Notes under the pieces: generated by a model
Databases searched by the model: none
What the model was told of the DNA's origin: nothing
The model's input: only the letters and a program-made list of their open reading frames with translations
DNA from: Mariprofundus aestuarium
GTDB taxonomy: Bacteria > Pseudomonadota > Zetaproteobacteria > Mariprofundales > Mariprofundaceae
NCBI RefSeq assembly: GCF_002795805.1
Contig: NZ_CP018799.1
Location: 248,001 to 312,000, forward strand
Direction of reading: 5' to 3'
Length of the DNA stretch: 64,000 nucleotides
Translations under genes and position numbers: made by a program
Shown: in pieces, positions 21,345-32,991 of the stretch
Layout: every line of letters begins with the position of its first letter
Position numbering within the stretch: the stretch's first letter is position 1

Positions 21345-22805
21345 TTATAATCCCAACTCGTCCCATATCTCGTCGATGCGTGCTATGACCGCCTCATCCA
21401 TTGCAATCGGGCGCCCCCATTCACGATCGGTCTCACCCGGCCACTTGTTGGTGGCATCAATACCGACCTTGGAGCCGAGTCCGGCAACAGGGGAGGCAAA
21501 ATCAAGATAATCGATCGGTGTATTTTCAGCCATGGTGAAATCGCGGGCCGGATCAGAGCGGGTGGAGATCGCCCAGATCACCTCTTTCCAGTCGCGGCAG
21601 TCGATATCCTCGTCCACCACGATGATGAACTTGGTATACATGAACTGGCGCAGGTAGGACCAGATACCGAACATCACGCGTTTGGCATGGCCTGCATAAC
21701 CCTTGCTGATTGAAACAATTGCGACGCGATAGGAGCAACCTTCCATAGGCAGATAGAAATCGACGATCTCCGGGAACTGTTTTTTCAGGATCGGTACAAA
21801 AACCTCATTAAAGGCAAGGCCGAGCACGGCTGGTTCATCGGGCGGTTTGCCGGTGTGGGTGGAGTGATAGATGGCATCACCGCGCATGCTCATCGTCTCC
21901 ACAGTGAAGACCGGGAACATCTCGGTTTCGTTGTAGTAGCCGGTGTGATCGCCGAACGGCCCCTCTTCAGCATACTCATCCAGTGATACGTAACCTTCCA
22001 GTACAACCTCGGCAGATGCGGGCACCTGCAGATCGATATCGAGACACTCTGTCAGTACGGTTTTCTTGCCGCGCAAAAGGCCTGCAAACTGGTATTCGGA
22101 AAGGGTATCGGGAATTGGTGTGACTGCTGCGAGAATCGTGGCGGGATCCGCACCGATAACGACCGCACAGGGGAAACGCGTAGCCCCTGCCTTCTTGGCT
22201 TCCAGATGATCCTGGGCACCACCACGGTGTTTAAGCCAGCGCATGATCAGCTTGTTTTTACCGATCTTCTGTTGCCTATAAATGCCGAGATTCTGGCGCT
22301 CCTTATTAGGGCCTTTGGTGACTACCAGCCCCCAGGTGAGCAGAGGCGCTGCATCTTCGGGCCAGCAGGTCTGAATCGGTAGCCGATCCAGATCTACTTC
22401 ATCACCACGCAGCACAACCTCCTGCCACGGTGCTTTTTTCACCTTTTTCGGCTGCATGTGCATCACTTTCTTCAGAACAGGGAACTTTTCCCATGCATCT
22501 TTGAAGCCCTTCGGTGGTTCCGGCTCTTTGAGATAGGCGAGCAGCTCTCCGATTTCCCGCAGTTCATCTGCTGATTCGCGCCCCATGCCCAGTGCAATGC
22601 GCTCGGCGGTGCCGAACAGGTTGGTCAGTACCGGCATCTCAGAGCTGATGATATTCTCGAAAAGAAGTGCGGGGCCACCTGCACGCAGCACGCGATCCGA
22701 TATTTCGGTGATCTCAAGATTGCTGCTGACCTCTTTCGTGATGCGTTTAAGCAGGCCACGCCTTTCAAGCTCAGCTATAAAGGCTCGCATGTCGGAAAAA
22801 CTCAT
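21345..22805 (-). CDS. ubiD: UbiD family 4-hydroxy-3-polyprenylbenzoate decarboxylase
   Basis: Prenylated-FMN-dependent decarboxylase of ubiquinone synthesis. The N-terminus [18 protein letters not shown], the [10 protein letters not shown] motif, the [17 protein letters not shown] strand, the [13 protein letters not shown] active-site loop with conserved glutamates and the C-terminal [19 protein letters not shown] all match UbiD. Length 486 residues, as in E. coli. The partner flavin prenyltransferase UbiX is not in the window. The start codon overlaps the STAS gene by 4 bp (ATGA), so it is translationally coupled to a signalling/lipid-transport module, an unusual place for a ubiquinone gene. 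Confidence 0.95.
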
Positions 22806-23134
22806 GTCGCAAAGCTGTCTTCGATCTCAAATACGGTGTCGAGTTTAGCCAGTGAGAAGATGTCGCGAACGTTGTCACTTAAGCCGGAGAGCACAAAACG
22901 CCCCCCCGTCAGTCGCGACCACTGTAACCCCTCCACAAGTGTTGCGATGCCTGAAGAATCCATGAACTCGACATGATCAAGAACCACGTGAACGCTCTGC
23001 ATTTTGGCGGTAAAAAGCGGCTTGAGCTGCTCGCGCAGGCGTGTCGCGGTGTGGATGGTAACGTCGCCAAAAACCTTAAGCGTCACATTGTTTTCACTCA
23101 GCTCTTCGCGTTCGAATTTAAGATTCGTGTTCAT
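22802..23134 (-). CDS. STAS-domain protein (anti-anti-sigma/MlaB-like)
   Basis: A 110-residue single STAS domain. The conserved loop reads [15 protein letters not shown], with Ser60/Ser61 at the place where SpoIIAA/RsbV proteins are phosphorylated by a cognate kinase. The start at 23134 has GGAGAG just upstream. Two roles are possible. As a partner-switch antagonist it would bind the HATPase protein encoded directly upstream (17-bp gene overlap). As a MlaB-type subunit it would bind an MCE transporter ATPase; an mlaB gene is missing from the mlaFEDC cluster at 30-33 kb. The two are not exclusive, and the operon supports both. E. coli MlaB lacks the SSG serine pair. Confidence 0.82.
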
Positions 23135-23612
23135 TGTTCTCTCCATCACGGATATTGAATGTTAGTCGCCAGTGATTACCATCTTCAAGTGCTTTATGCT
23201 CACAGTGATCGGTCACCGAGTGAATCAGCCTGAGTCCCAGCCCCCCCGGACAAATCTGTTCAAGGTTCTGTGGGCGAGTGGCAACCTCTTCAATACTACC
23301 GCACCAGAAAACCGGGGCATAGTCACGAAAATCAAAGATTAATGCCTGAGCGCCATTCTCACTGTAGATGGCTGTCTCAAACTCGACTCTTCCAGGTTTG
23401 CCCTCATAGCCATGAGCCGCGATATTGGCAAACAGCTCATCCACAGCAACGGCGACCCTATTACTGCGCAGTTCATCCATGCATGCCCTGGCTGTCATTA
23501 CGGCGACCATGGAACGTAAGACATGAATGCAGTCGCTGTTACTGTCCAGCTGCAGGCACAGTTTGCCATCGTGGCTGCTGTTGCATGCACCATGTAAATC
23601 AGGACTCCCCAT
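23118..23612 (-). CDS. RsbW/SpoIIAB-like serine kinase (GHKL ATPase)
   Basis: About 164 residues with a GHKL ATPase fold. The N-box is VDELFANIAAHGYEG, with the glutamate and asparagine that bind Mg-ATP. A G1-type strand IFDFRDYAPVF and a glycine-rich lid GGLGLRLIHSVTDHCE complete the site. These are the features of anti-sigma/serine kinases that phosphorylate STAS proteins. ATG 23612 is chosen because a GAGGTAG ribosome-binding site precedes it; the frame stays open to TTG 23666. The gene overlaps the STAS gene by 17 bp. No sigma factor is adjacent, so its output target is open; the neighbouring MCE transporter is a candidate. Confidence 0.82.
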   Translation of the reverse strand: MGSPDLHGACNSSHDGKLCLQLDSNSDCIHVLRSMVAVMTARACMDELRSNRVAVAVDELFANIAAHGYEGKPGRVEFETAIYSENGAQALIFDFRDYAPVFWCGSIEEVATRPQNLEQICPGGLGLRLIHSVTDHCEHKALEDGNHWRLTFNIRDGENNEHES

Positions 23613-23649
23613 GTTTCTACCTCGCTGAACAGCCGAAAGCGCCATCCTG

Positions 23650-24582
23650 TCAGTGTTGCTCGCCAAGCTTGTCTTCGATGCTCTTCAAACGCAACCGGTG
23701 CAGCTTTGCTGTGGCGCTGTCGGCATCTACCTCAGCCTGTCGCAGCAGGTGGGTGAGAGCCTTCTTTTCACCATGCAGGTCATTGAGCGCCTTATAGATA
23801 TCGAGCGCGCGTTCAAGTTTATCCTGCTGCCCTGCTCTGTTGCCTGGCGGAAGCTCTCCCTGTAGCAGCAGCGCATGTGCGGTAAGCCGCGGTGCTCCTA
23901 TCTTGCGGCAGTAGAGCAGTGTCTGCTCCGCCTCACTCCAGGCAGTTTCTGTCACACCTGCATCACGGGAAAGCAGAGCGAGTCCCATATGTGCTTCCGC
24001 TTTCAGCATAAGGCTGTTGCGATCACTCTCTTTCAGGCTAATGACCAGTTCGTAAGCTGATTTTGCAAGCGCTGAATCCCCAAGGCGTTGCGCAAGGCGT
24101 CCCGCCTGCAGGTGCAGGTCGCTGGGCCAGACTCTTTTTGAGAACAGCGTCTGCTGCAGCTGCAGCAGGGAGAAGTTCTCGGGAAGGCGCCCTGTTCTCT
24201 GCTGCACCAAACGCATGGCAAGCAGGGCTCGAAGATGCATCACTTCATCATGATTACGTTGAGCAAGTTTGATGGCCTGCTCATAAGCCGCTGCCGCTTT
24301 GGTAAGGTCGTTTGCCCCGCTGTATGCGGTGGCAAGATTGTACCATGAGCGTGTGATCAGACGCGTATCGTCGGCCAGTTGTGAGGCGCTCAGGGCGCGG
24401 GAGAATGAGCGCTCAGCAGCATTCCAGCGCTCCTGCTGCATGGCTTCGATGCCGTTGCTGGTGTGGTTTTCCGCCTTCAAAATATAAGGGTTATTGATCT
24501 CAGGTGTTTTACTTGAACCGGAGGAGATGCAGGAGGTCAGCAGCAGGCTGATAGCCGCGACAAGAAGTGCGTACGTACTCAT
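23650..24582 (-). CDS. TPR-containing outer-membrane-type lipoprotein
   Basis: Begins with a lipoprotein signal (hydrophobic 5-17, lipobox LLTSC, cysteine about residue 18). No aspartate follows the cysteine, so it should be sorted to the outer membrane. The body has at least two TPR units (SWYNLATAYSGANDLTKAAAAYEQAIKLA and the preceding RWNAAERSFSRALSASQL) and further helical pairs to about residue 290, ending in a charged coiled tail. ATG 24582 overlaps the end of the MCE gene. In other MCE/Pqi systems a lipoprotein links the MCE protein to the outer membrane; a TPR lipoprotein in that slot is uncommon. Confidence 0.8.
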   Translation of the reverse strand: MSTYALLVAAISLLLTSCISSGSSKTPEINNPYILKAENHTSNGIEAMQQERWNAAERSFSRALSASQLADDTRLITRSWYNLATAYSGANDLTKAAAAYEQAIKLAQRNHDEVMHLRALLAMRLVQQRTGRLPENFSLLQLQQTLFSKRVWPSDLHLQAGRLAQRLGDSALAKSAYELVISLKESDRNSLMLKAEAHMGLALLSRDAGVTETAWSEAEQTLLYCRKIGAPRLTAHALLLQGELPPGNRAGQQDKLERALDIYKALNDLHGEKKALTHLLRQAEVDADSATAKLHRLRLKSIEDKLGEQH

Positions 24583-24584
24583 TT

Positions 24585-25583
24585 TCACGGCTGCAGTTCC
24601 AGTGCCGGAGGCGCAACTGTTTCATCACGCGCCTTGCCAGATGTGCTGCCACCGACCAGCCATGAGCCGCGTACCGATTTTAGAATCTCCTGCATCTCGC
24701 CAATGGCCTGCCGTGATTCGCGGGCAAGTCCCGGAAGTTCAGGTGTCAGCTCCGAGAGGTCGGAGGCGACGGTATCAAGCGATTTGGAGAGCCTGTCCAC
24801 ATGTTCGATCAGGCTGTTGATTCGCTTCAGGCTTCCCGGCCCTTCTTTGGCAATCTGTTCGGAGAGGGGGCGCAGGTCAGTCAGGATGGAGGAGGTAGCT
24901 TCAAGTGCTGTAGCCAGCTGCTTGGCGACGCCCTGCTCTTTCAGGTCCTGTGTCAGGGATCGGAGATTTTCCAGTGCATCGGCAAGATTGGCGACAAGCT
25001 TGCCGATATTCTCACGGTCCAGATCCTGAGTGACGGCATTAAGGCGGGCGGTGACCTGCCTGACATCGCTATTGGGATCATTCAGCCATAGGGCGAGTGC
25101 GGCCATCTCGCTCAGTAGTTTGTTGGCATTATCGACTGCTGGTTTGATATCCTGCAGCAGTTGCTCAACCGTTGCCGCCGTTTCATAGTCGATCATCTGG
25201 CCGGCCGGAATGGCCGGTTTTTTGATGTCACCGGCTGTGATTTCAAGGGTCTGTTCACCAATTAATCCCTCACGAGTCAGGTGAACGATGGCACCTTCGT
25301 GCAGCATCGGATGGTAACGCTCGAGAAGACGCAGGGTGATTCGTACCCGGCCATCACTCTGAAGGTCCATGTTATCGATGCGCCCGACAGTAAACCCCTG
25401 ATACTTGACCGGCTGGCCGACGTAGAACGAGGAGGCGGAAGGTGGCGAGAAGGCGAGATAAAACTTGTCGGCAAACAGGTCGGTACGCAGGCTGACCATG
25501 AGCAGAATGAATACGATCGCACCGATGCCGAGGATGACAAACCACCCCACCTGACGACTTATGTTGGCAACGAATTCGCTCAC
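24585..25583 (-). CDS. MCE-domain protein of a second lipid-transport system (MlaD-like)
   Basis: A 332-residue protein with one N-terminal membrane helix (residues 13-32) and one MCE domain (about 40-118; FYVGQPVKYQGFTVGRIDNM, VHLTREGLIGEQTLEITAG). A long amphipathic region (~130-300) rich in Leu/Asp heptads follows, probably a helical barrel or coiled coil across the periplasm as in PqiB/YebT or mycobacterial MCE proteins. It is much longer than the 149-residue MlaD at 30923-31372. It directly abuts the pseudo-ATPase gene upstream. The likely role is binding or tunnelling of lipids between the membranes; the cargo is unknown. Confidence 0.88.
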   Translation of the reverse strand: MSEFVANISRQVGWFVILGIGAIVFILLMVSLRTDLFADKFYLAFSPPSASSFYVGQPVKYQGFTVGRIDNMDLQSDGRVRITLRLLERYHPMLHEGAIVHLTREGLIGEQTLEITAGDIKKPAIPAGQMIDYETAATVEQLLQDIKPAVDNANKLLSEMAALALWLNDPNSDVRQVTARLNAVTQDLDRENIGKLVANLADALENLRSLTQDLKEQGVAKQLATALEATSSILTDLRPLSEQIAKEGPGSLKRINSLIEHVDRLSKSLDTVASDLSELTPELPGLARESRQAIGEMQEILKSVRGSWLVGGSTSGKARDETVAPPALELQP

Positions 25584-26258
25584 TTACTCTCCTTCTGCAG
25601 AGTCAAGGCTTTGGCAATCAGGTTCGATCGTCAATGTGCGGGCATAATCGAGCCCTGAGCCCTCATCAACACTCCCGGTCAGATAGAGCAGCCCTGAGCC
25701 CAGTTGCTCGAGCGCCTGCATGCTAAATGCCCTGAATCGATCCAGTTGTTCGGGTGGCATGCCGATATGTACCTCCTGTGCAACGATGATAGCAGGCTTT
25801 ACAAGCATACAGCGTGTCAGACTTATTATAGCATGTGTGTAGGTCGATCTCTCGCCCGCTTTCTCATCCAGAGATGAGTCTATGCCAAATCTCCGGGCAA
25901 CCTCAACAATTTCATCTGATGCTCTCTCCAGACGCTGCTGGTCGCCATGGTAGAGAAATGGCAGCAGAAGGTTTTCACGCAGCGTGAGGTTGGCGATCAA
26001 CCCGCGCTGGCGGATCATGCTGCCAATCCGGATGCTGAATTCCGGTGTTCCTGAAGGGTAGCTGTTTGAGTTGCTCTCCAGCCACATTTTCCAGCCATTT
26101 TCACGATCGTCTTCTTTGAGGCAGAACATGTGCTGCATGAAGGCGTACTGACAATGGTAGTTCATCACCAGTCTTACATATTCGCCGTGAGCAACAGTTG
26201 CTGCTGGGACCATGGTTTGTCCCAGGTGCAGGGCGCTCCAGTGTAGGGTATCACTCAT
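25584..26258 (-). CDS. Degenerate ABC nucleotide-binding-domain protein of the second MCE system
   Basis: A 224-residue protein that occupies the MlaF slot of an MCE operon and aligns with the ABC ATPase fold, but its catalytic motifs are gone. The Q-loop region is still recognisable (residues 83-103, RQRGLIANLTLRENLLLPF). Where Walker A should follow GE at 25-26 there is no GxxGxGK[ST]. The signature position (133-144) reads KAGERSTYTHAI. The Walker B position (155-162) is PAIIVAQE with Gln for the Asp, and the H-loop position (~194) has TG instead of TH. It overlaps the permease gene by 4 bp. The frame is intact and the protein soluble-looking, so it appears maintained rather than decaying. 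It may act as a structural or regulatory pseudo-ATPase. Confidence 0.75.
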   Translation of the reverse strand: MSDTLHWSALHLGQTMVPAATVAHGEYVRLVMNYHCQYAFMQHMFCLKEDDRENGWKMWLESNSNSYPSGTPEFSIRIGSMIRQRGLIANLTLRENLLLPFLYHGDQQRLERASDEIVEVARRFGIDSSLDEKAGERSTYTHAIISLTRCMLVKPAIIVAQEVHIGMPPEQLDRFRAFSMQALEQLGSGLLYLTGSVDEGSGLDYARTLTIEPDCQSLDSAEGE

Positions 26259-27076
26259 ATCAGATTCAGAACCAGGGCAATCACTGCATCACCCATGATC
26301 ACGAGCATGAGCGAGCCCAGCACGCCCTGAGTAGCGTAGACCGGGATCATGTTCGGTTCGCGTCCCACCTTGCAGCCCATATTCAGTAGCATGACAGCGC
26401 TTAACATCGGATAGAGGGTTCCCTTACCAAGAAGTATCATAATCTCTTCCATGCTGGTGCCGCGCCGCACTTCGATCAGGAAGTCGATGAAATTAATTTC
26501 GTAACTCATCGACACAATCAGGCCGCCGAGCCAGATTGACACGAAGACAAAGATAAAGGTGAGAATCAGGCCGCACAGCGTGAAGGCCATCAGGCGCGGC
26601 CAGAGCAGATACTCCTCTTTGCTGATGCCCATGCTGCTCAGCGTCAGGTCCTCGCCGCGAACATGCATGGTGCCCAGTTCGGTCACTACGGCCACACCTG
26701 AACGGGAAAGTAGAAGAATGGTGACAACCAGTGGCGCAACCTCTTTTACCAGCAGGTCGGAGATCAACCGGCCGATCAGCGACATATCCTGAATGCTTTT
26801 GGAAAAGTCGACGATATTATAGACGGCGAGCGCACCGATACCGAATGCGACAAGCACGACCCAGAGCATGCTTTGAACGCCGGTAAAGTAGATCTGCCTG
26901 AAGACCACATTGGTTACTGCAGGTTTGGTTATCCACTGCAGGCGCAAACCGGCTGAGAGTATGGAGGTGGTAAGCCGGTAGGCACGACGGCTTTCATGGA
27001 ACATATGGATCAATGAGGAGCCGAGCGTGTCGGCGCGCTGGTTTATCTGTTGCAATAACTGACCCGGATTGCTCAT
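26255..27076 (-). CDS. MlaE-family permease of the second MCE system
   Basis: A 273-residue MlaE/YrbE-type permease. After an amphipathic N-terminal part come a first helix (WVVLVAFGIGALAVYNIV), the conserved APLVVTILLLSRSGVAVVTELGTMHVRGEDLTL block containing the MlaE 'elbow' and EQ-like loop (here ELGTMHV), and C-terminal helices with MLSAVMLLNMGCKVG. Compared with the MlaE at 31382-32185, the ATPase-facing loop is altered, which parallels the loss of ATPase motifs in its partner. It is the first gene of a block with 4-bp or smaller overlaps down to ubiD, and lies 62 bp after the AsmA-like gene. Confidence 0.9.
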   Translation of the reverse strand: MSNPGQLLQQINQRADTLGSSLIHMFHESRRAYRLTTSILSAGLRLQWITKPAVTNVVFRQIYFTGVQSMLWVVLVAFGIGALAVYNIVDFSKSIQDMSLIGRLISDLLVKEVAPLVVTILLLSRSGVAVVTELGTMHVRGEDLTLSSMGISKEEYLLWPRLMAFTLCGLILTFIFVFVSIWLGGLIVSMSYEINFIDFLIEVRRGTSMEEIMILLGKGTLYPMLSAVMLLNMGCKVGREPNMIPVYATQGVLGSLMLVIMGDAVIALVLNLI

Positions 27077-27138: not shown

Positions 27139-30100
27139 TCATGGACCGGGGGCTGTTTCCGGCATGCGCTTTTTATCCTTGTCGTTGCCGAACCAGAGAT
27201 CAGGCAGTGTCAGCAGGCTTTCGATAATACCTGCGGCTTTCAGCCCTGCCTTTTCCGGTGTGACTGTTTCAACCTTGGCATCGGTGAAGGGGCCGTACAT
27301 GTGGTAAATCTTGCGAAAAAGACTGTGTGAACTGCCTCCGAGGATATCCCTGAGTAGTGGTATCTTGGCAAGTAGCGCATCCAGGTTTTGCAATGGCCGC
27401 ACCACCAGATAGAGGTCGACTGTGGCCTGTTCCAGGTTCATGTTGCCATGGCCAGCCAGATCAAAGGCGGTGGAGCGGATCGCGACATTGCGAATGCGGA
27501 TTTCCTGATTTTGCATGATCGCTTCCATTTGCAGCCGCTCATACATAATTCCGGGGCCAGTCAGGTCTTCGCGCTGGCCTAGCAGCAGCAGTGGTAGTTT
27601 GGTCAGGTTTGTTGCTGCCAGCAGTGTGGTTAATGTTCCGCCTTCGAGGATGCGCCCGTTATCAGCGCGAAGGCGAAGCCTGCCATCCAGACCGTCCCAC
27701 CATGGCTGTTCACGCAGAATGATTCCACTGCCGGAGAACAGGAGGCGGCCATCTCCATCCTTGAAACGCTCTGAAAGCTTGCCCAGCTTCAACAGGTGGC
27801 CGAAATCACCGTGCAGCTCGGCAAAGCCGCGCCAGCGCATCCCCCCCTCTTTTTCCGGCCTCAATGTGGCGGACATATTCAGGCGTTGCTTCTCAATGCT
27901 GGCCGACAGGCGACGAAGATCAATGGCTCCTCCGCCGGGCATCGAAAAGCGGGCATCGATATCGGTAATATCCAGCTGGGTGGTGTGGACCTGCTTCGCC
28001 TTGAACAGCCCGATACTACCCCTGGACGATGCAAGGCGGATGAACACCTCTTGCATGCGGGAGTCGTCCCACTCGAATTTTTTGATGTTGGCGGATAAGA
28101 GCCACGACTTGTCGATGGTCTGGTCCTGATAGTCGAGCGCTTCAGGGAGTGCATTGCGATTCAGGTAGTCAGCAATTACGAGCAGCTCCCATGGTTTGTT
28201 GTCGAACGGGATGTTGATATCCAGTGAGCCGCTGAAGGATGGGGTGTGCAGGTCATTCAGCTTGAGATTCAGTTGTTCGCTGTTGATTGAGGCGCTGCTG
28301 TTGCGAATCAGCAGGGCTTTACCTTTGCTGGTCAGACTGGTCAGACGGATGGTTGGCAGCTTTTTCTCAAGGTTGAGGTCGCCACTACAGTGGATTGAAT
28401 AGGGCTCCCCTGTTTTTTTGTCCGAGCCGAGCAGCTGTTTCCAGCTTGCCTCTTTCAGATCAGCGGCTCCACGCCACTTGCCGTCAAACTTAAGGCTGCT
28501 GTAGATCGTGCCTCCGGCCTGGGCAAGCGGTAGCTGGAAGTGGGCAGCCAGCATGGCGAAGTCGCTTTTAGAGTCGATTGCGAGGTTGCTGATACTCCAG
28601 CGATTATCTTTGTCGATAGTGGTTGTGAGGTTCACTTCGCCATCGACATGGGTGTTCTGGAAGTGCAGTCCGGAAACAGTCAGTCCGTTACTCTGATCCC
28701 AGTTGGCGGAACCACCGGAGAGCTGCAGCGATGTGTCATCAATAGAGATCTCCCAGTTGCCCGACGGTTGCAACTGAACACTTGCTTTGCGGGGCTTTGA
28801 TTCGCTTGGGTCCCATAGCAACTGGAAGCGACTCTCGGCTTTGGCACCGTTCCATTTCCAGTCGGAGATGGCATCGGGGCCGAACCATGTCAGCAGCGAA
28901 GCAACATCGATCATGGATTTTCCAGCGATATTCAACTCCAGTGTCTGCCATGGGATGTAGAGCTCTCCAGTGGCATGGCCCATGTTTTTCGGCAGTTCGG
29001 CATCCATAATAACGGCATTCAGTCCATCATGGTTCAGGTCAATCTGGGCCGAGGTGTTGTGCAGGAAATCTTCGGATACACCAAGCGCGATATCGGCATC
29101 GTCTACATGGGCAGAGACCTGAAACAGCATCGCTTCCAGGTTCTCAAGTGTTGGCAGGGCCTTGATAGGGTCATCCCATGCCAGAGATAGCTTTGCTTTT
29201 GCCTGGCTTGCTGTGCCTGCTTTCATCAACGCCAGCCAGTTGTGCCACGTTTCATCCCCCAGTGGCCTCAGCCATGACCATATCACCGGCATCGATAGCT
29301 GATCCGAGTTTGCCTGCAGTGACAGCAGGCCTGCACTCCAGCTTCCTGTTGCCTGAATGCTGCTCTCACCCAGTGACCATGAAAGCTGTTCCAGGCTGAT
29401 ATGCTCAATAGCGAGGGATTTGCCCTCAATCGCTGTCAGTTTTAGCTGTAGATAGGCACGGTTGAGCGCAACTGAGTAGATGCTTTCAGGCAGTAGTGTG
29501 AGCACTTCTTCTGATTCTACAGATGAGGCGAGTTGCCAGGATTGTTTATTCAGGCGATTCAGCTTAAGTGATGCTGCAGGTGTGCCATTGAAGTATTTGC
29601 GGAGAGGGGCAGGGAGCCATGTGAAGTTGTTGCATTGCAATTCCACCAGCTGCGGCAGCATATCTTCACTGAGACTGGCTGAGATTGTGAAGTCCGATGT
29701 GGTCATCTGCATCTCACGCTCCATGCCATCAAGCATCAGATGCAGGTGATCGAGCGTTCCCTGCCACTTGTCCAGATAACTCCAGTTGACCTGCACGTCA
29801 TCCAGCACAAGTTGCGCAGCGGGAAAGCCGCGTCCGGAGTCGGTGTGCTGGAGATCCAGGGTGCCGCTACTCAGGCGAATGCGGTCGGGTGAAAAGCGGC
29901 CCCTGAGGAGGTCCGAAAGTGCAAAGCGGACAGCCACGCCGCCATGGTGGAAGGCGAGCGCTTCATCACTGCTGGTGAAGTCTAGATGATCTGACTGCAG
30001 CCAAAGAAAGTCGGTCCACCTCCATGTGAGCTGCCCGAGTTTGATCTCTTTAAGCTGAAGTTTCTTCTTCAGGTGGCTTTCGATGCCGGGGCGAATGGTG

Positions 30101-30216
30101 TCGAGGCTGGGTGATTGCGAGTAGAGCCAGCCACCTAGAAGGGAGAGTCCCAGAAGTAGCAAAAGCGCCACGCGCCAGCAAGAAGCCAGCGCGCGTTTAA
30201 AGAAGCTGCCCGACAT
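27139..30216 (-). CDS. AsmA-like/YhdP-type giant envelope protein
   Basis: A 1025-residue protein with one N-terminal membrane helix (about 13-33) and a very long periplasmic region. Alternating short beta strands run throughout, as in AsmA/YhdP/TamB-like bridge proteins, thought to form a hydrophobic groove for phospholipids. The C-terminal part carries the AsmA-like conserved domain (FDLAGHGNMNLEQATVDLYLVVRPLQNLDALLAKIPLLRDILGG), diagnostic of the DUF3971/AsmA2 family. It lies 20 bp after mlaC and 62 bp before a second MlaE-type permease, linking two MCE systems. Anterograde phospholipid transport is the family's proposed role; here it is an inference. Confidence 0.85.
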   Translation of the reverse strand: MSGSFFKRALASCWRVALLLLLGLSLLGGWLYSQSPSLDTIRPGIESHLKKKLQLKEIKLGQLTWRWTDFLWLQSDHLDFTSSDEALAFHHGGVAVRFALSDLLRGRFSPDRIRLSSGTLDLQHTDSGRGFPAAQLVLDDVQVNWSYLDKWQGTLDHLHLMLDGMEREMQMTTSDFTISASLSEDMLPQLVELQCNNFTWLPAPLRKYFNGTPAASLKLNRLNKQSWQLASSVESEEVLTLLPESIYSVALNRAYLQLKLTAIEGKSLAIEHISLEQLSWSLGESSIQATGSWSAGLLSLQANSDQLSMPVIWSWLRPLGDETWHNWLALMKAGTASQAKAKLSLAWDDPIKALPTLENLEAMLFQVSAHVDDADIALGVSEDFLHNTSAQIDLNHDGLNAVIMDAELPKNMGHATGELYIPWQTLELNIAGKSMIDVASLLTWFGPDAISDWKWNGAKAESRFQLLWDPSESKPRKASVQLQPSGNWEISIDDTSLQLSGGSANWDQSNGLTVSGLHFQNTHVDGEVNLTTTIDKDNRWSISNLAIDSKSDFAMLAAHFQLPLAQAGGTIYSSLKFDGKWRGAADLKEASWKQLLGSDKKTGEPYSIHCSGDLNLEKKLPTIRLTSLTSKGKALLIRNSSASINSEQLNLKLNDLHTPSFSGSLDINIPFDNKPWELLVIADYLNRNALPEALDYQDQTIDKSWLLSANIKKFEWDDSRMQEVFIRLASSRGSIGLFKAKQVHTTQLDITDIDARFSMPGGGAIDLRRLSASIEKQRLNMSATLRPEKEGGMRWRGFAELHGDFGHLLKLGKLSERFKDGDGRLLFSGSGIILREQPWWDGLDGRLRLRADNGRILEGGTLTTLLAATNLTKLPLLLLGQREDLTGPGIMYERLQMEAIMQNQEIRIRNVAIRSTAFDLAGHGNMNLEQATVDLYLVVRPLQNLDALLAKIPLLRDILGGSSHSLFRKIYHMYGPFTDAKVETVTPEKAGLKAAGIIESLLTLPDLWFGNDKDKKRMPETAPGP

Positions 30217-30236: not shown

Positions 30237-30857
30237 TCAGTCGTTGTCCTTCTCTTTCAGCTTGGTGACTTTATCTTCCAGCGTTTTCAGAAGGTGTTCA
30301 TAGCCGCCGTTAACCAGCGTGGATTTAAAATCCTGATAGAAGGTTCGCACCATGCTGGTGCCCTCAATGCGGATATCATAAACCTGCCAGCCTGTTTCGG
30401 TCTGGTGCAGACGATACTCCACCGGCGTTTCACGGGTGCCGTCGATTACGGTGGATTCGACGCGCGCCTTGTCGCTTTTAAGCTCGGCATCGGCAAAGAC
30501 CACTTTTTGCCCTTTATATTCACTCAGACGGTTGCCGTAGGAGCGCTCAAGCAGTTCGCGGAATACGCTGGTAAAGTGGGTCTGCTGCATGCCATCCAAC
30601 TCTTTCCAGGGGTTGCCGAGGCTGCGCCTGGCCATGGCCGCGTAGTCGAAACGGCCTTCCACGCTCTGGCGGATGGCATCGCGGTCCTTGCTGGTCAGCT
30701 TGGTCGTGTCCTGACGCGCTTCAAGCACCTCGATGATCTGGTTGACGGTGGTTTCGATAACCGTTTTCGGATCACTGCTACCACTGCTTGCCCATGCCGA
30801 AACGGAAAAGAGCATGGCAAATAGAATGGCGAACGTTGTACGAAACAGTTTTAACAT
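30237..30857 (-). CDS. mlaC: Periplasmic phospholipid-binding protein MlaC
   Basis: About 206 residues: a signal peptide ending near SAWA-SS and then the MlaC/Tol_Tol_Ttg2 domain. Family motifs include FDYAAMARRSLG, THFTSVFRELLERSYGNRLSEYKGQKV, PVEYRLHQTETGWQVYDIRIEG and MVRTFYQDFKS. MlaC carries phospholipids between the outer-membrane MlaA complex and the inner-membrane MlaFEDB complex. The start at 30857 has a strong AAGGAG site; the longer reading from 30884 is not needed. No mlaA or classic mlaB is adjacent. It is the fourth gene of mlaFEDC. Confidence 0.94.
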   Translation of the reverse strand: MLKLFRTTFAILFAMLFSVSAWASSGSSDPKTVIETTVNQIIEVLEARQDTTKLTSKDRDAIRQSVEGRFDYAAMARRSLGNPWKELDGMQQTHFTSVFRELLERSYGNRLSEYKGQKVVFADAELKSDKARVESTVIDGTRETPVEYRLHQTETGWQVYDIRIEGTSMVRTFYQDFKSTLVNGGYEHLLKTLEDKVTKLKEKDND

Positions 30858-30922
30858 GAGAAACTCCTTATGTTTGGTATCCATAGTTTAAGGTTCCTGC
30901 AGAAGCAGGCGAGGAGCAATGA

Positions 30923-31372
30923 TTACTCCTTGCCGCTGAAAATGTACTTGCTGATCAGGTCTTCGATATTGATGGCGGATTCGGTCTCCTCAATCTCGTT
31001 GCCCTCCTCGAGGTTGCTATCCTCCATGCCCTGGGTGATCCTGATGTAGCGATCTCCGATAATACCCTTGGTACGCACCGAGGCGAAGGCGTCTTCGGTG
31101 ATTTCAACACCCTCATTGATGCGCAGGATTACTGTTGCATGGTCATTGTTGGCCAGCTGCACCTCATCGACGCGGCCAATGACCACACCCGCCAGCATAA
31201 TGTCGCTGCCTTTACGTACGCCACCGACATCATCGAAGTTGGCGGTCAGGGTATAGCCGGTCGCGCCGATGCCGCCGATCTGTCCAACCTTGATGGCGAG
31301 CCAGGCGATGGCCAGTAGTCCGATAAATACAAATACGCCGACAGTCATCTCTGTTTTTCTATATGCTTGCAT
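30923..31372 (-). CDS. mlaD: MCE-domain lipid-transport protein MlaD
   Basis: A 149-residue MlaD: N-terminal membrane helix (residues 9-28, TVGVFVFIGLLAIAWLAIKVG) and one MCE domain (YTLTANFDDVGGVRKGSDIMLAGVVIGRVDEVQL; ASVRTKGIIGDRYIRITQG). MlaD forms a hexameric ring on MlaFE and holds lipids in its central pore. The length matches short MlaD proteins (about 150-180 residues). It lies nine bases after mlaE and 65 bp before mlaC. Confidence 0.95.
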   Translation of the reverse strand: MQAYRKTEMTVGVFVFIGLLAIAWLAIKVGQIGGIGATGYTLTANFDDVGGVRKGSDIMLAGVVIGRVDEVQLANNDHATVILRINEGVEITEDAFASVRTKGIIGDRYIRITQGMEDSNLEEGNEIEETESAINIEDLISKYIFSGKE

Positions 31373-31381
31373 TACAACTCC

Positions 31382-32185
31382 TTACAGGAAGAACGAGGTG
31401 AGAATATAGTCCATGATCAGTACGCCGACCGATGCGATGACCACCGCTTGCGTCGTTGCCTTGGCTACACCTTCCGTGGTGGGCTCGGACCGATAGCCCA
31501 TGTAGGTACAGATCATGCCGATCATGAAACCAAAGATCACCGCTTTTACCCAGCCGCCATTGAGGTCGATCATCTCAAGCTTGGCGATCAGTTCGGCCAT
31601 GTAGGCGCCGGGATTCACACCCAGCAGCTCCACACCGACAATGTAGCCCGAAGCGATACCAACGACATCGAATATCGATACCAGAAGAGGCACGGCAATC
31701 GTGGTGGCGATGATGCGAGGCAGAATAATTCGCTGCATCGGATTGACCGCCATCATCTCCAGCGCATCGGTCTGCTCAGTGACGCGCATGATGCCGATCT
31801 CTGCAGTGATGCTCGAGCCTGCCCGACCAATAATCATGAAGGCACCGAGCACCGGCCCCAACTCGCGAATGATCGACATGCCGACACCTGCGCCAAGCAG
31901 TGATTCCGAACCGAATTTTGCCAGTGTGTAATAGCCCTGCAGCGCCAGTACCATGCCGGTGAACGCACCGGTAATGACGATAATAGCCAGTGAGCCGACA
32001 CCTAGGGCATAGAGCTGGATGATGAAATGTTTGCCCTGCCACGGCTTGGCAAAGAGCAGGGAGAGAGCCTGGAATCCAAGCCTCGTACCGTCGCCTAGCT
32101 GCTCGATGCCGCGCATTGCATAGCGGCCCATTCTGCCGAAGAAGGTGGCCATTCCTGATTGGCTGGCTGTTGTCATATCGCTCAT
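31382..32185 (-). CDS. mlaE: MlaE phospholipid ABC permease
   Basis: A 267-residue MlaE permease. Typical blocks are GVGSLAIIVITGAFTGMVLALQGYYTLAKFGSE, RELGPVLGAFMIIGRAGSSITAEIGIMRVTEQTDAL (with the EIG...EQ coupling loop intact), PRIIATTIAVPLLV and GGWVKAVIFGFMIGMICTYMGYR. It is membrane-embedded and contacts MlaF below and MlaD above. Its start overlaps the mlaF stop by 4 bp. It serves as a useful reference for the divergent second permease at 26255-27076. Confidence 0.95.
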   Translation of the reverse strand: MSDMTTASQSGMATFFGRMGRYAMRGIEQLGDGTRLGFQALSLLFAKPWQGKHFIIQLYALGVGSLAIIVITGAFTGMVLALQGYYTLAKFGSESLLGAGVGMSIIRELGPVLGAFMIIGRAGSSITAEIGIMRVTEQTDALEMMAVNPMQRIILPRIIATTIAVPLLVSIFDVVGIASGYIVGVELLGVNPGAYMAELIAKLEMIDLNGGWVKAVIFGFMIGMICTYMGYRSEPTTEGVAKATTQAVVIASVGVLIMDYILTSFFL

Positions 32186-32991
32186 TTTTCCAACCTTACT
32201 GTGCCCGGTCTGTGAGTCAGATCATCAATGTAGGAGGTGGTGCTGCGTGAGAACGGGATCGGACCATCGGGCCGCCCCTCGAGGAACTGGCGCACGCGCT
32301 CATCGGAACTCGCCCTGATAACTTCCGGTGTGCCCTCGGCAATAATACTTCCCTGCCACATCAGGATCACATGATCTGCAATAGAGAGCCCCGCCTCAAC
32401 ATCGTGCGTCACCACAATCGAGGTCATGCGGTTCATCTTCGAGGTGTCTTTGATCAGGGTGGAGATCACGCCGGCTGAGATCGGATCAAGGCCAGAGGTT
32501 GGTTCATCAAAGAAGACTATCTTCGGATCCATGGCAATGGCGCGGGCAAAGGCGACGCGTTTGGCCATGCCGCCGGAAAGTTCAGAGGGCATCAGCTCTT
32601 CAAAGCCGCGCAGCCCTACCTGTTCCAGCTTCATCGACACCATAGTGCGAATCACTGACTCATCGAGATCGGTATGTTCGTGCAGTGGGAAGGCTACATT
32701 GTCATAAACATTGAGTGAATTTAGCAGCGCGGAGTACTGAAACAGCATGCCCATGCTTTCGCGCAGCTCATACAGCCGTTTGGATGGGATGGTGCAGAGA
32801 TCCTCGTCACCGTACCAGACATGACCAGTGGTAGGTTTGATCAGACCGGAGAGCAGCCGCAGCAGTGTTGTCTTGCCGGAGCCAGAGCCACCCATGATCG
32901 CAGTTGTTGCAGCCGCACGGATATGAATATCGGTCGGAGCAAGGGCATCGACATCGTTGTAGCGTTTGCTTAAGTTCTCACCACGAATCAT
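32182..32991 (-). CDS. mlaF: MlaF phospholipid ABC transporter ATPase
   Basis: A 269-residue ATPase with all motifs: Walker A GGSGSGKTTLL, Q-loop LFQYSALLNSLNVYDNVAFPLHEH, signature LSGGMAKRVAFARAI, Walker B IVFFDEPTSGLDP and H-loop VVTHDVEAG. The C-terminal extension (FLEGRPDGPIPF) is where MlaB normally binds MlaF. It is the first gene of mlaFEDC; the gap to the divergent ilvE is 152 bp. As the only intact MCE-type ATPase in the window it might also energise the second system, whose own subunit looks inactive (inference). Confidence 0.95.
   Translation of the reverse strand: MIRGENLSKRYNDVDALAPTDIHIRAAATTAIMGGSGSGKTTLLRLLSGLIKPTTGHVWYGDEDLCTIPSKRLYELRESMGMLFQYSALLNSLNVYDNVAFPLHEHTDLDESVIRTMVSMKLEQVGLRGFEELMPSELSGGMAKRVAFARAIAMDPKIVFFDEPTSGLDPISAGVISTLIKDTSKMNRMTSIVVTHDVEAGLSIADHVILMWQGSIIAEGTPEVIRASSDERVRQFLEGRPDGPIPFSRSTTSYIDDLTHRPGTVRLEK

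Follow-up and report, generated by a model that had tools for sequence, protein, structure and literature searches.

A conserved MCE transporter cassette with a nucleotide-binding subunit lacking the ATP motifs in Mariprofundus aestuarium and its relatives

The known MCE lipid transport systems, to our knowledge, contain either an active ATPase (Mla, Mpc and Mce/MceG) or no parts of the ATP-binding cassette (ABC) type (Pqi and Let), and the question raised by a locus in Mariprofundus aestuarium is what the role could be of a nucleotide-binding domain (NBD) which is retained in an MCE transporter of ABC architecture after its motifs for ATP have been lost. The genome of this species is a single contig of 2.54 Mb, and the stretch of 64,000 nucleotides analysed here (the window; C1:248001-312000) encodes on its minus strand such a dead NBD (pNBD; 224 aa, 25584-26258) together with a permease of the MlaE type (273 aa, 26255-27076; PF02405, E 4e-38), an MCE protein consisting of an MCE domain and a long helical region (332 aa, 24585-25583; PF02470, E 3e-11) and a lipoprotein with matches to tetratricopeptide repeat (TPR) families (312 aa, 23650-24588), whose lipobox, LLTSC, was recognised from the sequence. 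A MlaE-type permease and an MCE-domain protein are thus encoded together, with both PF02405 and PF02470 above cut-off, as is characteristic of an MCE ABC transporter, and the four-gene layout of an MCE bridge (viz. permease, NBD, needle-type MCE protein and lipoprotein) is present in one cluster. An earlier note on this DNA had described a set of three genes, all of which are found, but the fourth gene and the presence of the cassette in another phylum had gone unmentioned. The explanation that we favour, with moderate confidence, is that the pNBD is a conserved dead structural subunit in an MCE system which is not powered by its own NBD.

Loss of the ATP motifs and maintenance of the gene

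The AlphaFold model of the pNBD, which was made from 22 sequences (predicted local distance difference test, pLDDT, 84.7; predicted template modelling score, pTM, 0.83), predicts that by its fold this protein is a full ABC nucleotide-binding domain. The model matches MlaF (6xbd_I) with a Z score of 18.0 across 213 residues, Z scores of 17-19 were obtained to many other ABC NBDs, and in Foldseek the solved ABC NBDs match it along its whole length. In searches with the sequence, no match was found in Pfam, and NCBIfam gave only weak ABC matches covering residues about 70-200. In an alignment with the intact MlaF that is also encoded in the window (32182-32991, minus strand; all six motifs present, NCBIfam MlaF E 1e-83), the sequence MNYHCQYA of the pNBD (residues 32-39; 26142-26165) stands in the place of the P-loop GGSGSGKT, RSTYT (residues 137-141; 25836-25850) in that of the signature LSGGM and IVAQEV (residues 158-163; 25770-25787) in that of the Walker B motif VFFDEP, where the Asp is replaced by a Gln that is nearly invariant across the pNBD family. 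The absence of Walker A, the broken signature and the Gln for the Walker B Asp, as described in the earlier note, are therefore all confirmed, with the addition that the catalytic Glu beside the lost Asp is kept (E162; Glu or Asp in 33/34 orthologues). The statement that the Q-loop region is retained is correct for the region (residues 86-103, GLIANLTLRENLLLPFLY; 25950-26003), which is the most conserved segment of the dead NBDs and in which ANL, EN and L.P.L are nearly invariant, but it does not extend to the Q-loop Gln itself, as this column is Arg in the pNBD, the Gln of RQRGL lies one column later and none of the 34 orthologues has a Gln at the Q-loop position. Similarly, the H-loop His has indeed been lost, but its replacement by Gly is not certain, as the substitute is Gly or Val depending on the alignment; in some members a His is found one column past this position, in a column which is occupied by D, E, S, Q or H.

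The orthologues referred to above were identified by a class-wide profile search of 78 genomes of Zetaproteobacteria, in which 34 genomes gave matches at E ≤2e-42, followed by a gap to the ordinary ABC ATPases at E values of at least 6e-10. Walker A (GxxGxGK[ST]), the Q-loop Gln, the signature, the Walker B Asp and the H-loop His are each present in 0/34 of these orthologues. The ratio of nonsynonymous to synonymous substitutions (dN/dS) among Mariprofundus pairs is 0.10-0.19 for the pNBD, 0.10-0.16 for its MCE partner and 0.04-0.065 for the intact MlaF, all of these values being approximate as some dS values are near saturation. Because the dN/dS of the pNBD is near that of the MCE partner and higher than that of MlaF, this gene is under purifying selection and is less constrained than an enzyme. 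The permease and pNBD genes overlap by 4 bp (ATGA), as do the MCE and TPR genes by the same length, and the pNBD gene abuts the MCE gene. The order permease-pNBD-MCE-TPR is kept in 12/12 relatives inspected, and the TPR lipoprotein gene comes after the MCE gene in other lineages as well. A dead NBD accompanies 31/31 of the Zetaproteobacteria permeases of this subfamily, and the three further dead NBDs, for which a complete permease match is lacking, are from fragmented assemblies. Hence, the earlier inference that an intact frame overlapping with the permease gene is being maintained holds true.

The relatives of the genome that contains the window are, according to a collection scan, Mariprofundus and further Zetaproteobacteria, and the scan also revealed two loci from Cloacimonadota with the same four genes (L092 and L093). 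When a profile of the permease subfamily was used, the cassette permease was found in 21/59 Cloacimonadota genomes, the adjacent NBD being degenerate in each of them, and 22 Cloacimonadota NBDs were read in total (21 from the profile search, inclusive of L092, and L093). The AlphaFold model of the L093 protein (pLDDT 64.5) was not used as evidence. Among 398 genomes of Pseudomonadota, the permease subfamily was found in Zetaproteobacteria, G029 and G363, followed by ordinary MlaE proteins at ≤154 bits. In the order to which G363 belongs the cassette permease is present in 7/150 genomes, and 6/6 of the NBDs that could be read are degenerate, with MCE and TPR genes alongside. The order of G029 is represented by this one genome, whose NBD (L133:6813-7622) has kept Walker A, Walker B and the H-loop His and lost the signature and the Q-loop Gln; judged from its sequence, it may represent an intermediate stage on the way to the loss of ATPase function.

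Sampling thus covered two phyla, Pseudomonadota and Cloacimonadota, and provided 63 cassette NBDs (34 from Zetaproteobacteria, 22 from Cloacimonadota, six from the order of G363 and that of G029). The signature (LSGGQ or LSGGM) is present in 0/63 of them, as it is missing from 34/34, 22/22 and 6/6 members of the first three groups, where Walker A is found in 1/62; with G029, Walker A is found in 2/63 (L202 and G029). All six ATP motifs are present in 0/63 cassette NBDs versus 18/18 ordinary MCE ATPases, some of which stem from genomes that also hold the dead cassette, and because of this difference the loss of the motifs cannot be ascribed to chance. The check across homologues that had been proposed has therefore revealed no cassette homologue with all motifs intact and no frameshift, and it upholds the suggestion that a retained dead subunit similar to MlaF marks a distinct class of MCE systems.

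The docking groove and the role proposed for the pNBD

In ordinary MCE NBDs the conservation is highest at Walker A, the signature and Walker B (3.3-3.7 bits per column), whereas in the dead NBDs the peak of conservation is formed by the Q-loop/coupling groove, the ANLSLRENLLLP block, at 3.5 bits in Zetaproteobacteria and 3.3 bits in Cloacimonadota. A corresponding difference is seen in the permease, whose EExDA loop was proposed as the likely docking site of the ATPase in a 2007 survey of mce operons (PMC1810536). The motif E[EQ]xDA[LM] is present in 22/24 control permeases versus 0/43 cassette permeases, and the coupling-helix region of the permease in the window (TELGTMHVRGEDLTLSSMGIS; 26621-26683, minus strand) is without EExDA. 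Nearly all cassette permeases share a Glu one position later, and the residue preceding it is mostly Gly, Arg or Asn. In a maximum-likelihood tree of the permeases, in which the permease of the window belongs to a separate subfamily, those with an intact NBD are all found on the same side of a branch (support 100/99), and the dead-NBD lineages each form a group of their own; as this tree is unrooted, it is compatible with either a single or a repeated loss of ATPase function. These sequence comparisons indicate that the permease and the dead NBD have changed together. Further, the MCE gene of the subfamily has been relocated in several genomes of Cloacimonadota, and because the permease and pNBD genes are side by side even there, these two can be regarded as an inseparable pair.

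As the peak of conservation has shifted to the docking groove, away from the ATP site, and EExDA has been lost, the sequences argue for a permanent, non-catalytic clamp role of the pNBD and not for its pairing with MlaF. A scaffold role, which was one of the two possibilities considered in the earlier note, is in this manner favoured by the conservation pattern. Probably, a homodimeric MlaE-type permease is held at its cytoplasmic coupling helices by two copies of the pNBD acting as a clamp, and the way to the outer membrane would be provided by the TPR lipoprotein together with a hexamer of the MCE protein and the helical needle of this hexamer, forming a bridge like Mpc or Pqi; the C-terminal part of the MCE protein is PqiB-like (NCBIfam E 5e-9). 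In ABC proteins each composite ATP site takes its Walker motifs from one subunit and its signature from the partner subunit. No site of this kind is complete in a dimer of two pNBDs or in one of a pNBD and MlaF; hence, the cassette would not run on ATP hydrolysis at its own NBDs, and its likeliest mode would be an equilibrative (passive) flow of lipids or a drive from elsewhere, e.g. a proton gradient. Passive flow specifically is less certain than the structural role of the dead subunit. An ATP-free MCE transporter acting as an equilibrating or outward conduit is plausible, because in E. coli the passage of lipids from MlaD to MlaC needs no ATP and is prevented by ATP hydrolysis (reviewed in PMC10212509). 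A proton-driven mode, such as that of SbmA, which is without NBDs (PMC13316013), is an alternative. The analysis thus shows that the motifs have been lost, that an ABC fold is predicted, that the gene is under purifying selection and paired with the permease, that the docking groove is retained and the coupling helix altered, and that the cassette recurs in another phylum, whereas its assembly, stoichiometry, cargo, direction and energisation are inferred.

Some of the observations weigh against the explanation that the pNBD is a dead structural subunit. The Glu beside Walker B persists in the pNBDs of Zetaproteobacteria, and a single motif is left in a few other members (Walker A in L202 and G029; the H-loop His in two NBDs of the third order), so that, as far as can be judged from these residues, weak nucleotide binding may occur in the members concerned. 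In addition, the genome also encodes intact MlaF-class ATPases, whose docking on the cassette permease is conceivable in principle. The more far-reaching proposal, that these cassettes constitute a cross-phylum class of lipid transporters of ABC architecture in which ATP has been abandoned, the NBD serves as a clamp on a re-specialised coupling helix, lipids flow passively or by means of another source of energy, and an evolutionary link is provided between the ATP-driven Mla and Mpc systems and the ATP-free Pqi and Let systems, is considered to have an even chance of being correct.

Alternative explanations and comparison with known systems

Of the other explanations, the one that survives best, though it is unlikely, is that, in the style of MceG, the permease binds an intact ATPase whose gene is at another locus, and that the pNBD competes with it for the same site as a displaceable inhibitor or regulator. 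The comparison in this case is with Mce1N and MceG (PMC10517005): the mycobacterial Mce1/YrbE system also has MlaE-type permeases and the gene for its ATPase lies outside the mce operon, but MceG is an active, shared ATPase, whereas the cassette has its own dead NBD in that place. However, the genome of M. aestuarium has only two MlaF-class ATPases, each of them by its own permease, and no orphan was found in it; the permease lacks the motif at which an ATPase has been proposed to dock; and the pNBD occurs in the cassette no less regularly than the permease, their genes overlapping, which sets it apart from an optional regulator.

A pairing of the pNBD with the intact MlaF at 32182-32991, or with the other MlaF-class ATPase, to form an asymmetric ABC pump on the cassette permease in which MlaF hydrolyses ATP, is quite unlikely. 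Dimerisation with this MlaF had been put forward in the earlier note, and in its favour are the position of mlaFEDC, which in the main Mariprofundus group lies a short way upstream of the cassette on the same strand, the presence of intact MlaF-class ATPases in the genome and the fact that asymmetric ABC pairs are known in general. Asymmetric ABC transporters, of which TAP is an example, likewise retain an NBD whose catalytic residues have been lost, and in them one composite site remains complete. The pNBD, however, can contribute to no complete site, as the signature has been lost in all cassette NBDs. Since a site needs the signature of the partner and the pNBD has none, the site on the Walker A of MlaF would be incomplete, the other site would lack a Walker A, and a heterodimer would be without ATP hydrolysis (for the ATP sites of MlaF, see PMC7784689). 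Further, EExDA has been lost from the cassette permease; this permease is encoded by one gene, hence both of its docking sites are identical; and the adjacency of the cassette to mla is limited to the main Mariprofundus group, being absent in other genera as well as in Cloacimonadota. Based on these considerations, the proposed dimerisation is not supported.

It is very unlikely that the pNBD is a sensor of nucleotides or of the lipid state, which would bind its ligand with no P-loop and thereby gate the permease; new conserved residues at former catalytic positions (Q161, Q37 and H142) would fit such a role, but they are not common to the Cloacimonadota members and no ligand is known. Lastly, decay of the gene, a frameshift or a misassembly, which the loss of nearly all ATP motifs from the gene in the window could bring to mind, is refuted by the intact orthologues in 34 Zetaproteobacteria genomes, the dN/dS values for Mariprofundus pairs and the similar degeneration in further lineages.

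Among the known systems, one of the closest to the cassette is Mpc (MpcEFDA) of Brucella abortus, which has been proposed to be a trans-envelope bridge and likewise contains a MlaE-type permease, an NBD, an MCE protein with a PqiB-like needle and an outer-membrane lipoprotein (PMC12436622). However, MpcF has been described as a MlaF homologue and an ABC ATPase (PMC12436622), whereas the NBD of the cassette is dead, MpcE has a STAS domain that is not found in the cassette permease by Pfam or NCBIfam, and the Mpc lipoprotein is PqiC-like whereas that of the cassette has TPR matches and no match to the PqiC family in these databases. MlaFEDB of E. coli, a type VIII ABC transporter, also shares with the cassette a MlaE-type permease, an NBD of the MlaF fold and an MCE protein, but MlaF is an active ATPase, whereas the cassette has lost the ATP motifs of its NBD, and its permease has an altered EExDA docking motif. 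PqiABC and LetAB are MCE bridges without an ATPase, and the PqiB-like C-terminus of the cassette MCE protein is a further likeness to them; however, PqiA and LetA are not of the MlaE type and no NBD is present in these systems, whereas the cassette keeps the ABC architecture and its inner-membrane protein is of the MlaE type (PF02405, E 4e-38) and not of the PqiA type. The SbmA-like peptide transporters (SLiPT; PMC13316013) have an ABC-type transmembrane fold and SbmA works without ATP, by protons, but it is without NBDs and coupling helices, whereas the cassette keeps the coupling-helix region and the NBD fold.

In the literature available as open-access papers, no description of an MCE class with a dead NBD was found. 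According to the 2007 survey (PMC1810536), an Mkl ATPase is invariably part of Gram-negative MlaE/mce operons, and the mce-linked ATPases examined there keep Walker A, Walker B and the signature; the cassette described here departs from both of these statements. Whether MCE systems need ATP, and what part ATP has in the direction of lipid flow, are matters of open dispute. A natural test of these questions is provided by the cassette, as ATP hydrolysis has been removed by evolution from a recognisable MCE ABC transporter and the product has been kept in two phyla, and this conservation suggests a type of transporter that has no ATP engine of its own. Should lipid still be moved by the cassette, ATP would set the direction or rate of the flow and would not be what enables the passage. 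The annotation of dead-NBD loci as ATP-driven transporters is unsafe.

Neighbouring genes and variations in gene order

Upstream of the cassette, and on the same (minus) strand, are found mlaF, mlaE (31382-32185; PF02405, E 3e-74), mlaD (30923-31372; PF02470, E 4e-19), mlaC (30237-30884; PF05494, E 2e-40) and, between mla and the cassette, a YhdP/AsmA-like gene (27139-30216; PF13116, E 8e-17), the position of which is kept in the main Mariprofundus group. The Mla system, the AsmA-like bridge and the dead-NBD MCE bridge form one same-strand series in seven genomes of this group. On the 3' side of the cassette, most Mariprofundus relatives have a gene for an RsbW-like HATPase (23118-23666, minus strand in the window) and one for a STAS protein with DSSG (22802-23149, minus strand), followed by ubiD. 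The HATPase/STAS pair (22802-23666) is possibly a partner-switch regulator of the envelope locus. These two proteins were also considered as MlaB-like subunits, which was rejected, as they rather resemble a pair of the RsbV/RsbW type and are not found beside some of the cassettes.

Additional transporter genes were observed in some genomes. In G004 and G017 (L039:8899-9669 and L040:6253-6927), a further, putative ABC ATPase gene precedes the cassette permease by ~0.6 kb on the same strand, and its product is ~28-30% identical to MlaF. An Mpc-like set with a long permease (about 380-400 aa) and an intact ATPase is present in some Zetaproteobacteria (L134 of G008 and L175 of G045). The cassette itself also varies in its arrangement: in three genomes (L216 in G414, L217 in G400 and L215 in G425) the pNBD gene is beside the permease gene without MCE or TPR neighbours, and a matching MCE gene is found elsewhere in each genome. 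In G363 (L170 with L211), the permease gene is parted from the NBD-MCE-TPR genes by a gene of ~600 codons, whose product by eye resembles a CHASE2-adenylate cyclase, and a gap of comparable size is seen in G476 and G558 (L231 and L234).
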